This document shows positions 21,742 to 24,338 of a stretch of DNA of 64,000 bases, piece by piece. The position numbers were made by a program, and so were the translations under genes. Every line of letters begins with the position of its first letter. The stretch's first letter is position 1. The notes under the pieces were generated by a model. That model searched no databases. It worked only from the letters and a program-made list of their open reading frames with translations, and was not told the origin of the DNA. The DNA is from Cetobacterium sp. 8H (GTDB lineage: Bacteria; Fusobacteriota; Fusobacteriia; Fusobacteriales; Fusobacteriaceae). The stretch is from NCBI RefSeq assembly GCF_014250675.1, contig NZ_JACHTG010000003.1, positions 62,001 through 126,000 of the forward strand, written 5' to 3'.

Positions 21742-23055
21742 TTATCCTATTCCTCCGTAAAGAACTCCTAGAATTAAAATTATTAAAACTCCTGGAACAA
21801 AGATATATCTACCTACTTGAACAATTATTTTTCCTATTTTATAGTTAGAACCCATATCAATCTCTTTTATAACCAATTTTGAATCAATACAGTAAAAATA
21901 AAATCCTAAAATTATTATTGCACCTAATGGAATTAAGTATATTGTCATCAGATCAGCAAATTTACCAAAAAGTTCCATATTCAAATCTAATGGTATTCCT
22001 AATAAAAATAGAGCTGATCCTACTAACAAACTAGCTTTTTTTCTAGAGATATCAAATTTCTCCATAAATGCTTCCACTGGAACTTCTAACTGATTTATTG
22101 CAGAGGAGATTGCTGCAAATATAACACTCAAGAAAAATATAATTCCTAAAAATTTTCCACCTGCTATATTCCCAAATACCGCTGGTAAAGTTATAAAAAG
22201 TAAACTTGGTCCTGCACTTGGATTAAATCCAAAAGCAAATGCTGCTGGTATAATTATAAAACCTGCCATTAAAGCTGCTAAAGTATCTAATATACATGTT
22301 TGCACAACACTTGTAGATATATTTACATCCTTATCTAAATAGCTTCCATAAACTAATAGTGCAGATCCACTAACTCCTACCGTAAAGAAAGCTTGCCCTA
22401 AAGCCATTACCCAAGTTGTTGGGTTCAATAATAGTTCCCACTTAGGGTACAATAAAAACTTTACACCCTCGTACGCTCCAGGTAATGTTAATGATTTTAT
22501 CATAAGTCCCAAGAAAATAGCGAACATTAAAGGCATAACTATTTTATTTATTTTTTCTATACCTTTTATTACTCCTAAAGATATTACTAAAATACTTATA
22601 AACGCTGCTATAAAGTGCCAAAATATAGAATCTGCACTTCCTGCAAAAGAATTAAAGTACTGTTCATAGTTTATATTTCTCATATCTATCATTAAATATG
22701 CCACAAAATATTTCAATATCCATCCAAAAACAACTACATAAAATGTGAATATTCCAGCAACTGAAATAACAGGAATAAATGGCAATATTTTAGCCAATGG
22801 AAACTTCTTTTTCTCCATAAGTTCTCCTACACCTAGAACTCCTTTTTTCATCATTCTTCCAAAAGATATTTCCGCAACTAAACCCACATATGCAAATAAT
22901 GCCATAAAAATAAAGTAAGGAATTAAAAACGCTCCCCCTCCATATGTTCCTAGTTTCCAAGAAAAAAGCCAGATATTTCCAAGTCCTATTGCTGCTCCTA
23001 CACATGATAAAATAAATCCAATTTTGTTACTAAACTTTTCTCTTTTGTTTTTCAC
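21742..23055 (-). CDS. Sodium-dependent amino-acid transporter, NSS family (probable tryptophan)
   Basis: Neurotransmitter:sodium-symporter family, 437 residues, about 11 membrane helices as in the short bacterial members. The first helix carries the unwound substrate/sodium site AAIGLGNIWLF, followed by GTYGGGAFLIPYF. The frame begins at GTG 23055, 7 nt after AGGAGG; an ATG two bases upstream is followed at once by TGA. It sits directly behind an intrinsic terminator and a leader peptide containing three Trp codons. On that basis tryptophan is the likely cargo, which is an inference from context, not from the protein. Confidence 0.9.
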   Translation of the reverse strand: MKNKREKFSNKIGFILSCVGAAIGLGNIWLFSWKLGTYGGGAFLIPYFIFMALFAYVGLVAEISFGRMMKKGVLGVGELMEKKKFPLAKILPFIPVISVAGIFTFYVVVFGWILKYFVAYLMIDMRNINYEQYFNSFAGSADSIFWHFIAAFISILVISLGVIKGIEKINKIVMPLMFAIFLGLMIKSLTLPGAYEGVKFLLYPKWELLLNPTTWVMALGQAFFTVGVSGSALLVYGSYLDKDVNISTSVVQTCILDTLAALMAGFIIIPAAFAFGFNPSAGPSLLFITLPAVFGNIAGGKFLGIIFFLSVIFAAISSAINQLEVPVEAFMEKFDISRKKASLLVGSALFLLGIPLDLNMELFGKFADLMTIYLIPLGAIIILGFYFYCIDSKLVIKEIDMGSNYKIGKIIVQVGRYIFVPGVLIILILGVLYGGIG

Positions 23056-23075: not shown

Positions 23076-23108
23076 AAAAAAAAATTCCACAGAATATATC
23101 TGTGGAAT
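23076..23108 (-). terminator. Attenuator terminator before the NSS transporter
   Basis: On the minus strand a 10-bp stem ATTCCACAGA / TCTGTGGAAT with a TATAT loop is followed by nine T. The T tract ends only a few bases before the AGGAGG of the transporter, so RNA polymerase must read through it to express the gene. It is placed as a regulated terminator, not as the end of another gene. Confidence 0.85.
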
Positions 23109-23138
23109 AAATAATTTTTCTATTTAATCTATAGATAC

Positions 23139-23205
23139 AGTCTTATTTTAAATTTTTAGCCACACTAAAATAAGTTTGTATCATCTCATAAGACTCTACA
23201 AACCT
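23139..23205 (-). promoter_or_regulatory. Alternative pairing segments of the leader RNA
   Basis: Just after the leader stop codon several complementary segments overlap and so exclude one another: 23205-23197 with 23180-23172 (9 bp, one G-U); 23195-23188 with 23146-23139 (8 bp); 23174-23166 with 23150-23142 (9 bp). In addition TGTGG at 23164-23160 can pair with CCACA in the 5' arm of the terminator (23105-23101), a weak 5-bp antiterminator. Read from sequence; energies not computed. Confidence 0.6.
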
Positions 23206-23283
23206 CTAAGGCCACCACCAAAATAAAACTGAATTACTTAAAGTTAGTGTATTTTTTGATATATTTAATTTAAAATTTTTCAT
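23206..23283 (-). CDS. Tryptophan-rich leader peptide (25 codons), candidate attenuator ORF
   Basis: ATG 23283 follows AGGAGG at normal spacing. The 25-codon frame ends with TTT TGG TGG TGG CCT TAG, that is Phe-Trp-Trp-Trp-Pro-stop, and the rest is unremarkable. Tandem Trp codons are the signature of ribosome-mediated trp attenuators (compare TrpL). A terminal Pro-stop is also the arrest site in TnaC, the tryptophan-induced tna leader. It lies between a well-formed promoter and a terminator preceding an NSS transporter. It is too short and too specialised to be an ordinary gene, and I infer that it senses tryptophan or charged tRNA-Trp. Confidence 0.85.
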   Translation of the reverse strand: MKNFKLNISKNTLTLSNSVLFWWWP

Positions 23284-23314
23284 AATACAACCTCCTAATT
23301 TAAGTATTTCAATT

Positions 23315-23343
23315 ATTTTAGCACTAAGTTTTATAAAAAACAA
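23315..23343 (-). promoter_or_regulatory. Promoter of the Trp leader-NSS transporter unit
   Basis: On the minus strand TTGTTT (23343-23338), 17-nt spacer, TAAAAT (23320-23315) with an extended -10 TG. The predicted start near 23308 gives a leader RNA of roughly 230 nt to the terminator. Confidence 0.65.
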
Positions 23344-23426: not shown

Positions 23427-24338
23427 ATGGCTAATAATAATAATCTAATACAACTACAACTTATAAATTATTATAAAAAAAATAGAGAAAACTATAGAAA
23501 AATGGGTAAGCGTTTGGAACGATTTCTTAAACAAGTTTTTGAAAAAGAAAAAATAACCTATCAATCTATATCAAGTAGAGCTAAAACTAGGGAAAGTTTT
23601 CAAAAAAAACTTGAAAGAAAGGGATACCCCTCTTTAGAATATGCTACTGATTTATGTGGAATCAGAGTAATTACATTCCTTGAAAGTGAAACTAAAATTG
23701 TTGAAACTTTTCTACGAAACACTTTCATTATTGATGAAAGTAAAAGTGAAGATAAAAGTGATAATTTAGGTGAAGATAAAGTTGGATATAAATCTATCCA
23801 CTTAGTTGCAACTCTTCCAGAAACACTATTAGCTCTACCTGAGTTTGAAAGATTTCGTGATTTGAAATTTGAAATACAAGTGAGAACAATCTTACAGCAT
23901 GCATGGGCTGAAGTTGAACATGATAAAAATTATAAATTTAGTGGACAACTTCCTCCAGATATAAAAAGAAGATTTAAACTTTTAGCTGGGTTTTTAGAAA
24001 TTGCTGACAGAGAGTTCGAAAGTATTTCAAAAGAGATAAATGAATATGAGAAAAAAGTCGCTACCACAATTGCTGATAATAATCTAGAAGAGATAGAAAT
24101 AAATTCAACATCTTTAAGGAAATATTTAAATAATAAATTTAACGTCACCTTTTCTCAAGCTATTAGTCCTAAAATTATTACACTTCTTCATGATAGTGAT
24201 ATCAAAAACTTAAAAGAGTTTTCTGAAATTGAAAACGTTGATGTCATGAAGAAATACTTAGGAAACGGAAATAAAAAATTTCCAGCTCGATATGATTTAA
24301 TGATTAAACATCTTATAGATTTAAAAAAAGAAAAATAA
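23427..24338 (+). CDS. RelA/SpoT-domain (p)ppGpp synthetase-like protein
   Basis: A 303-residue protein with a (p)ppGpp synthetase domain in about residues 25-190. Visible motifs: SSRAKTRESFQKKLERKGY (ATP-binding basic motif), DLCGIRVITF, GYKSIHLVA, and EIQVRTILQHAWAEVEHDKNYK with the catalytic-type Glu/Gln. No HD hydrolase domain is present, so it is synthetase-only like small alarmone synthetases. It carries an extra C-terminal helical domain of about 100 residues (RKYLNNKFNVTFS onward) of unknown role. No antitoxin-like partner is adjacent. It is divergent from the Trp-leader unit. Confidence 0.87.
   Translation: MANNNNLIQLQLINYYKKNRENYRKMGKRLERFLKQVFEKEKITYQSISSRAKTRESFQKKLERKGYPSLEYATDLCGIRVITFLESETKIVETFLRNTFIIDESKSEDKSDNLGEDKVGYKSIHLVATLPETLLALPEFERFRDLKFEIQVRTILQHAWAEVEHDKNYKFSGQLPPDIKRRFKLLAGFLEIADREFESISKEINEYEKKVATTIADNNLEEIEINSTSLRKYLNNKFNVTFSQAISPKIITLLHDSDIKNLKEFSEIENVDVMKKYLGNGNKKFPARYDLMIKHLIDLKKEK

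Follow-up and report, generated by a model that had tools for sequence, protein, structure and literature searches.

A probable tryptophan-codon attenuator upstream of a predicted tryptophan importer in Cetobacterium, and its overlap with the RF04312 motif

Sequence comparison and computed RNA folds indicate that the leader of an NSS-family transporter gene in Cetobacterium sp. 8H very probably works as a ribosome-mediated transcription attenuator, responding to charged tRNA-Trp and governing a tryptophan importer. It lies in a 64,000-nucleotide stretch of contig NZ_JACHTG010000003.1, here called the window. Leader-peptide attenuation is classical; the system described here would be a complete leader-peptide attenuator with a topology unlike that of the E. 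coli model, and would provide a concrete switch for tryptophan uptake in the Fusobacteriota, in a genus lacking tryptophan synthase alpha. The initial annotation of this DNA had proposed a tryptophan-sensing transcriptional attenuator. Four observations lend this proposal good support: the Trp codons are conserved, the alternative helices covary, the transporter resembles MhsT, and trpA is absent.

Organization of the leader locus

The promoter, the AGGAGG sequence, the 25-codon open reading frame (ORF) ending in FWWWP-TAG and the terminator before the NSS ribosome site, all listed in the initial annotation, are present on the minus strand (Table 1). The mutually exclusive pairings that it reported after the ORF are also real, but the description was incomplete: four segments follow the stop codon (A, B, C and D), and a fifth (Z) lies within the coding region. 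The terminator folds with an energy of −13.7 kcal/mol (z −6.6). Relatives within Cetobacterium keep the promoter as TTGTTT-17-TACAAT, and a sister genus (g5) has a sharper version, TTGACA-17-TAAAAT.

Table 1. Features of the leader and transporter locus, in window coordinates
Feature	Position	Strand	Description	Basis
Promoter	23315..23343	−	−35 TTGTTT (23343-23338), 17-nt spacer, −10 TAAAAT (23320-23315); inside TGCTAAAAT	Sequence
Leader ORF ribosome-binding site	23291..23296	−	AGGAGG	Sequence
Leader ORF	23206..23283	−	25 codons, MKNFKLNISKNTLTLSNSVLFWWWP-TAG, ends F-W-W-W-P-TAG	Sequence; conserved in 14 genomes
Trp codons	23220-23212	−	In leader ORF	
Pro codon	23211-23209	−	In leader ORF	
Segment Z	23209..23231	−	CAGUUUUAUUUUGGUGGUGGCCU, coding-region stretch spanning the Trp codons; pairs with the 5' part of C if ribosome-free	
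Segment A	23197..23205	−	AGGUUUGUA, directly 3' of the stop codon; partner B	
Segment B	23166..23182	−	GAUACAAACUUAUUUUA; partner A or C	
Segment C	23133..23150	−	UAAAAUAAGACUGUAUCU, antiterminator strand; partner Z, B or D	
Segment D	23095..23101	−	AGAUAUA, inner terminator 5' arm and loop; repeats part of the B motif	
Intrinsic terminator	23076..23108	−	10-bp stem and T9; stem 23108-23084, T9 ends at 23076	
Transporter ribosome site	23068-23063	−	AGGAGG, directly after the terminator	
NSS (SNF) transporter	21742..23055	−	437 aa, predicted Na+/tryptophan symporter	Pfam SNF; MhsT similarity

A divergent gene for a RelA/SpoT-type alarmone synthetase-like protein (23427-24338, plus strand) shares its intergenic region with the Trp attenuator, and upstream sequence in other Cetobacterium suggests the same neighbor there.

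Tandem Trp codons are the conserved feature of the leader peptide

Nine of the 12 Cetobacterium genomes contain the motif TGGTGGTGGCCNTAR, each a single time and always at the transporter locus, and the other 86 Fusobacteriota genomes hold two occurrences only, both in unrelated sequence. Because the motif is locus-specific within the genus and nearly absent elsewhere, its recurrence exceeds chance. The nine genomes keep LFWWWP-TAG and vary in the first 15 residues; the Pro codon varies synonymously (CCT, CCC or CCA), and FWWWP-TAG is invariant.

Five genomes of the sister genus carry leaders that retain tandem Trp and are otherwise very different from those of Cetobacterium, with the ends WWWSF-TAA (two genomes), WWRS-TAG, WWRSF-TAA and WWSS-TAA. 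Since these leaders end in RS, SS, SF or RSF, tandem Trp rather than the Pro-stop is the conserved feature. Of the conserved ORF ending in W(W)(W)P-stop that the initial annotation had anticipated, the ORF and its tandem Trp codons are thus borne out across 14 genomes, and the Pro-stop is confined to Cetobacterium. We also looked for a Trp corresponding to W12 of TnaC, but in all 14 leaders the W run holds the first Trp of the peptide. In genus g4, the transporter (66-68%) lies downstream of an apparent proS and has no such leader.

Two Cetobacterium loci depart from the common arrangement. In the draft genome of Cetobacterium sp. UBA6069 (L010/L034), the leader is lost, the promoter and terminator are kept, and the D motif is gone from the loop, making the region upstream of this transporter a natural leader deletion. 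At a second locus (L014, G004:C47), a complete leader and terminator have no transporter downstream, and the transporter starts on another contig without a leader; this reflects either rearrangement or misassembly.

The downstream gene likely encodes a tryptophan importer

The window transporter matches Pfam SNF with 167.5 bits against a cut-off of 27, and its best match among solved structures is the bacterial NSS amino-acid transporter MhsT (PDB 4us3; E 4e-73), the substrate of the window protein being a prediction. The sister-genus transporters are 71-73% identical to it. The closest non-fusobacterial relative that we found, from Clostridia, is 53% identical and lies behind a T-box whose specifier, read from an alignment, is apparently UGG. 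In a search that covered trpA as the sole trp gene, none of the 12 Cetobacterium genomes gave a match. The five sister-genus genomes with a leader-bearing transporter likewise gave no trpA match above the threshold, and the two genomes of that genus with trpA lack the transporter. MhsT similarity, the Trp leader, the Trp T-box on a relative and the absence of trpA together suggest that the window protein imports tryptophan.

Mutually exclusive helices in the leader RNA

Segments A, B, C and D occur in the same order in all 14 leaders, as the types AGUUUGUA (A), GAUACAAAC (B), UGUAUCU (C) and AGAUACA (D). In every leader, segment A starts within 0-4 nt of the stop codon (0-2 nt in Cetobacterium), which places it 15-22 nt past the start of the first Trp codon. 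A Z:C duplex is present throughout, at −14 to −26 kcal/mol. When partners were permuted among the 14 leaders, none of 5000 permutations equaled the pairing energy of the true partners for Z:C, A:B, B:C or the terminator arms (D:D'); these figures are supportive rather than exact probabilities, since the lineages are few and related. Computation thus confirms the alternative RNA folds that the initial annotation had put forward, with mutually exclusive helices of which Z:C, A:B, B:C and the terminator covary.

The C:D pairing is sequence-invariant instead of covarying. Its energies range from −5.8 to −13.4 kcal/mol (mean −8.7, versus a shuffled mean of −2.2), and because its core is invariant it does not beat permuted partners. 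The D motif AG(A/G)UA(C/U) is kept in 14 of 14 leaders: the terminator stems of Cetobacterium and of most of the sister genus are unrelated, yet an AGAUACA-type D is still retained in the loop. As D repeats part of B, C can pair with either. Within the Z:C helix, the CC of the Pro codon is base-paired, so Z:C alone could possibly explain the conservation of this codon.

The 14 genomes thus share a translatable short ORF with a ribosome site and tandem cognate codons, and comparison supports a mutually exclusive terminator and antiterminator, with C:D resting on invariance.

A three-state model for the switch

We computed folds for three ribosome states, representing a stalled ribosome by covering the RNA to 13 nt from the first Trp codon. 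With the ribosome at this codon, 13 of 14 leaders fold chiefly into A:B and C:D; G035 is the exception, departing from the fold expected for the stalled state (C:D 0.26). Placing the ribosome at the stop codon removes A:B and increases B:C. Without a ribosome, the minimum free energy folds of the species inspected show Z:C enclosing A:B, and the terminator is free. C:D nevertheless stays high with the ribosome at the stop codon in several species (G000 0.67, G030 0.86, G033 0.91), so B:C must be trapped before D is synthesized. At equilibrium the terminator is usually more stable than C:D, and the switch must therefore be kinetic. We infer that the order of synthesis must matter for its operation.

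The model starts from the conserved ORF with its codons and RNA segments, from the covarying helices (Z:C, A:B, B:C and the terminator) and from the computed folds; on this basis we infer where the ribosome sits, the kinetics, how the switch responds to tryptophan and what the protein transports. When Trp-tRNA is scarce, a ribosome stalled on the tandem Trp codons would cover Z and leave A exposed; A:B would form, and the freed C would capture the terminator arm D, giving readthrough and production of the importer. When Trp-tRNA is plentiful, the ribosome would reach the stop codon and mask A, allowing B:C to form; D would then be free, the terminator would form, and transcription would stop. 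On an untranslated leader, Z:C would form around the A:B hairpin and the terminator would again fold. The three-state folds therefore predict readthrough only with a ribosome held at the Trp codons. The initial annotation had left the choice between uptake logic (on when Trp-tRNA is scarce) and catabolic logic (on when tryptophan is plentiful); this anatomy favors uptake.

The proposed switch shares tandem regulatory codons, alternative hairpins, an intrinsic terminator and readthrough upon starvation with the trp, his and other attenuators of E. coli. It differs in that a ribosome at the stop codon would mask the first segment after the ORF, and a stalled ribosome would mask Z and leave A:B intact. 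The window leader would also control a transporter in a genus without trpA, and has no match to the Rfam Trp_leader family.

The role of the Pro-stop

Slow translation termination after a C-terminal Pro is established. It counts in favor of a refinement of the attenuator model, compatible with it, that we hold only tentatively: Trp-codon attenuation would operate as above, and slow termination at the Pro-stop would prolong the masking of A and so deepen shut-off in Cetobacterium. The start of A within 2 nt of the stop codon in this genus fits such tuning, but the pairing of the Pro CC in Z:C accounts for conservation of the codon equally well.

The initial annotation had also suggested a blend with TnaC-type arrest, in which the nascent peptide would stall at the Pro-stop at high free tryptophan and thereby set the switch. 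Invariance of the Pro-stop in nine Cetobacterium genomes with synonymous Pro codons is consistent with this idea, and a ribosome arrested at the stop codon would, in the same model, also mask A and bring about termination. E. coli TnaC and the window leader are alike in length (24-25 residues), terminal Pro-stop and tryptophan theme, but the window leader lacks W12, has a Pro-stop that is restricted to its genus, ends in an intrinsic terminator, and precedes an importer rather than tryptophanase. All five sister-genus leaders carry the same scaffold without a Pro-stop, no Trp stands about 12 residues before the peptide end, and the Pro CC is engaged in Z:C. These observations speak against the blend; we consider TnaC-type arrest improbable and, given the sister-genus leaders, reject it as the main mechanism.

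Nor did the W-P-stop leader that the initial annotation had envisaged upstream of tnaA turn up: no leader ORF of the W...P-stop kind precedes the tryptophanase-like genes inspected. We rejected a tryptophanase link for the window leader, the tnaA-like genes lying elsewhere in the genome and having no W-P-stop leader. Two other NSS genes are found elsewhere in the same genome, one of them directly 3' of a tryptophanase-like gene. As matches of the tryptophanase-like genes to TIGR02617 fall below its cut-off, both tryptophanase and tyrosine phenol-lyase are possible identities.

Directly 5' of such tryptophanase/tyrosine phenol-lyase-like genes, several genera share a conserved structured leader of the type GUCCGCC-hairpin-GACCGGGGUAGAC. 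It is present at L091 (~1405-1490; own genome, C4 near 484,400) and at L076, L078-L082, L084-L086, L090 and L092. The hairpin arms vary in step, and the loci scanned gave no Rfam match at E ≤ 0.5; a possible reading is an unrecognized riboswitch.

The window leader overlaps the RF04312 motif

The trpB motif, RF04312, has more than 900 copies, found in Firmicutes and Fusobacteria. Its authors rate it a strong riboswitch candidate, place an antiterminator in the P1 right shoulder, and leave room for a classic attenuator (PMC11109978, Breaker lab 2024). RF04312 matches the window leader at 23182-23073, beginning at segment B, with 24.8 bits; this lies below the gathering score of 59, and we do not count the leader as a formal member. 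The register nevertheless agrees, with P1 followed by the terminator and the antiterminator in the P1 right shoulder: P1 corresponds to B:C, its right shoulder to C, the proposed antiterminator, and P2 to the terminator. The published description differs in having no upstream leader ORF and no segments Z and A, and in its reading as a riboswitch. In the open-access literature, we found no paper on this Trp leader, the shared scaffold or leader ORFs of RF04312.

Across 98 Fusobacteriota and 196 Clostridia genomes, all RF04312 matches stay under the cut-off (the best reaches 52.5); they occur in 46 and 10 of these genomes, respectively. Short ORFs with a ribosome site precede these matches, and runs of a single codon type occur in them. 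His runs precede hisZ and family-3 amino-acid ABC binding proteins or transporters, Tyr runs precede tyrS and an AGCS symporter, Pro runs putP, and Thr runs thrS; aromatic-codon leaders stand before DAHP synthase, and Trp before trpX. Among the Clostridia copies, Phe and Tyr leaders precede NSS transporters and His leaders precede hisZ-like genes. The window's own genome has two further copies, one His (C4:1524433) and one Pro (C4:297878). Matches without a codon run (e.g., L138, L145 and L170) were taken as chance or unrelated.

These ORFs bear directly on the published reading of the overlapping RF04312 as a ligand-binding riboswitch, on which the ORF would be incidental. The two-hairpin terminator/antiterminator anatomy does fit the trpB motif (PMC11109978). 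Codon runs of at least three, however, are found in 51 of 76 hits (21/1520 in shuffled controls) and of at least four in 40 of 76 (2/1520), in seven or more amino-acid classes the encoded residue agrees with the gene that follows, and no compact invariant aptamer core is seen outside the pairing segments. A riboswitch is accordingly very unlikely. T-box or protein-dependent (TRAP-like) attenuation is highly improbable: a Clostridia relative of the transporter is under T-box control, but the window leader has no T-box match in Rfam even at E ≤ 5 and no repeated GAG/UAG array. An Rfam scan of the window leader returned no T-box, Trp leader or riboswitch; a manA-II hit (E 0.015, far below its cut-off) was set aside as a mere terminator-like match.

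A model of the shared scaffold recovers the Trp leaders

We built a model, R2, from 30 scaffold copies, all sub-threshold RF04312 family members and none of them a Trp-NSS leader; it replaced an earlier model, R1, built on terminator pairs only. On the main measures, P1 and the terminator of R2 covary more strongly than in any of 500 shuffles. In the 64-kb window, R2 scores highest on the Trp leader (23184-23075; 38.5 bits, E 6e-5), and since the next match reaches 34.7 bits, the margin in Cetobacterium itself is modest. R2 matches all 14 Trp-NSS leaders in register (30-56 bits), and genome-wide searches recover four of the sister-genus leaders with E values of 7e-7 to 4e-5. Matches of R2 and RF04312 begin at segment B or at most 2 nt away.

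Further R2 matches include Asn runs before asnA at eight loci in several genera (L207-L210, L212, L217, L224 and L227), additional Thr runs before thrS, many His and Pro copies, and a new WWSW leader before a TrpY-like permease. A WW leader in G002 (L046) has no R2 match.

By sequence, the window leader is the Trp version of this scaffold, a kinship that the initial annotation had not noticed; in other copies, codons for His, Tyr, Thr, Asn, Pro, Leu or aromatic residues stand in front of genes that fit them. We propose that RF04312 probably represents the downstream half of a single mobile attenuator scaffold with swappable codons, rather than a riboswitch. In Fusobacteriota and Clostridia, the residues sensed by this scaffold would include at least His, Tyr, Trp, Thr, Asn, Pro and the aromatic class. 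Duplicates would acquire new targets when the codon run is exchanged together with the matching C arm, and the run would predict the substrate of uncharacterized transporters. For the non-His leaders alone, codon-to-C pairing is not clearly above permutation (469/5000). Reclassifying RF04312 as an attenuator is the broader claim, and a probable one. If true, it resolves an orphan riboswitch candidate, with the upstream codon run naming the sensed amino acid, and opens many motif copies and several transporter families (Tyr-coded AGCS; Leu-, Phe- and Tyr-coded NSS) to direct functional tests.

His-codon leaders with attenuator or terminator hairpins are reported from Firmicutes, namely the Bacillus cereus group, Peptostreptococcaceae and Erysipelotrichales, in passages of two papers (PMC9413887; PMC2965389). 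They share His codons and attenuator hairpins with the present scaffold, whose Clostridia copies precede hisZ-like genes, but these passages concern His only and mention no scaffold common to several amino acids and no link to RF04312.

Several individual copies deserve mention. At L166, L167, L174 and L215 in Cetobacterium, a YYYYY leader precedes an AGCS (Na:alanine) symporter, for which tyrosine transport is therefore predicted; likewise, a VLLLLADLL leader before an NSS paralogue at L160 and L161, also in Cetobacterium, predicts leucine transport. A possible leader MKRFREAMCMS before a metN-like gene (L226), a weak scaffold match, is perhaps a Met version. Finally, a leader with the sequence FTWQSWYFED (L196) combines aromatic codons with an unexpected downstream gene, that of a peptide-binding ABC protein.
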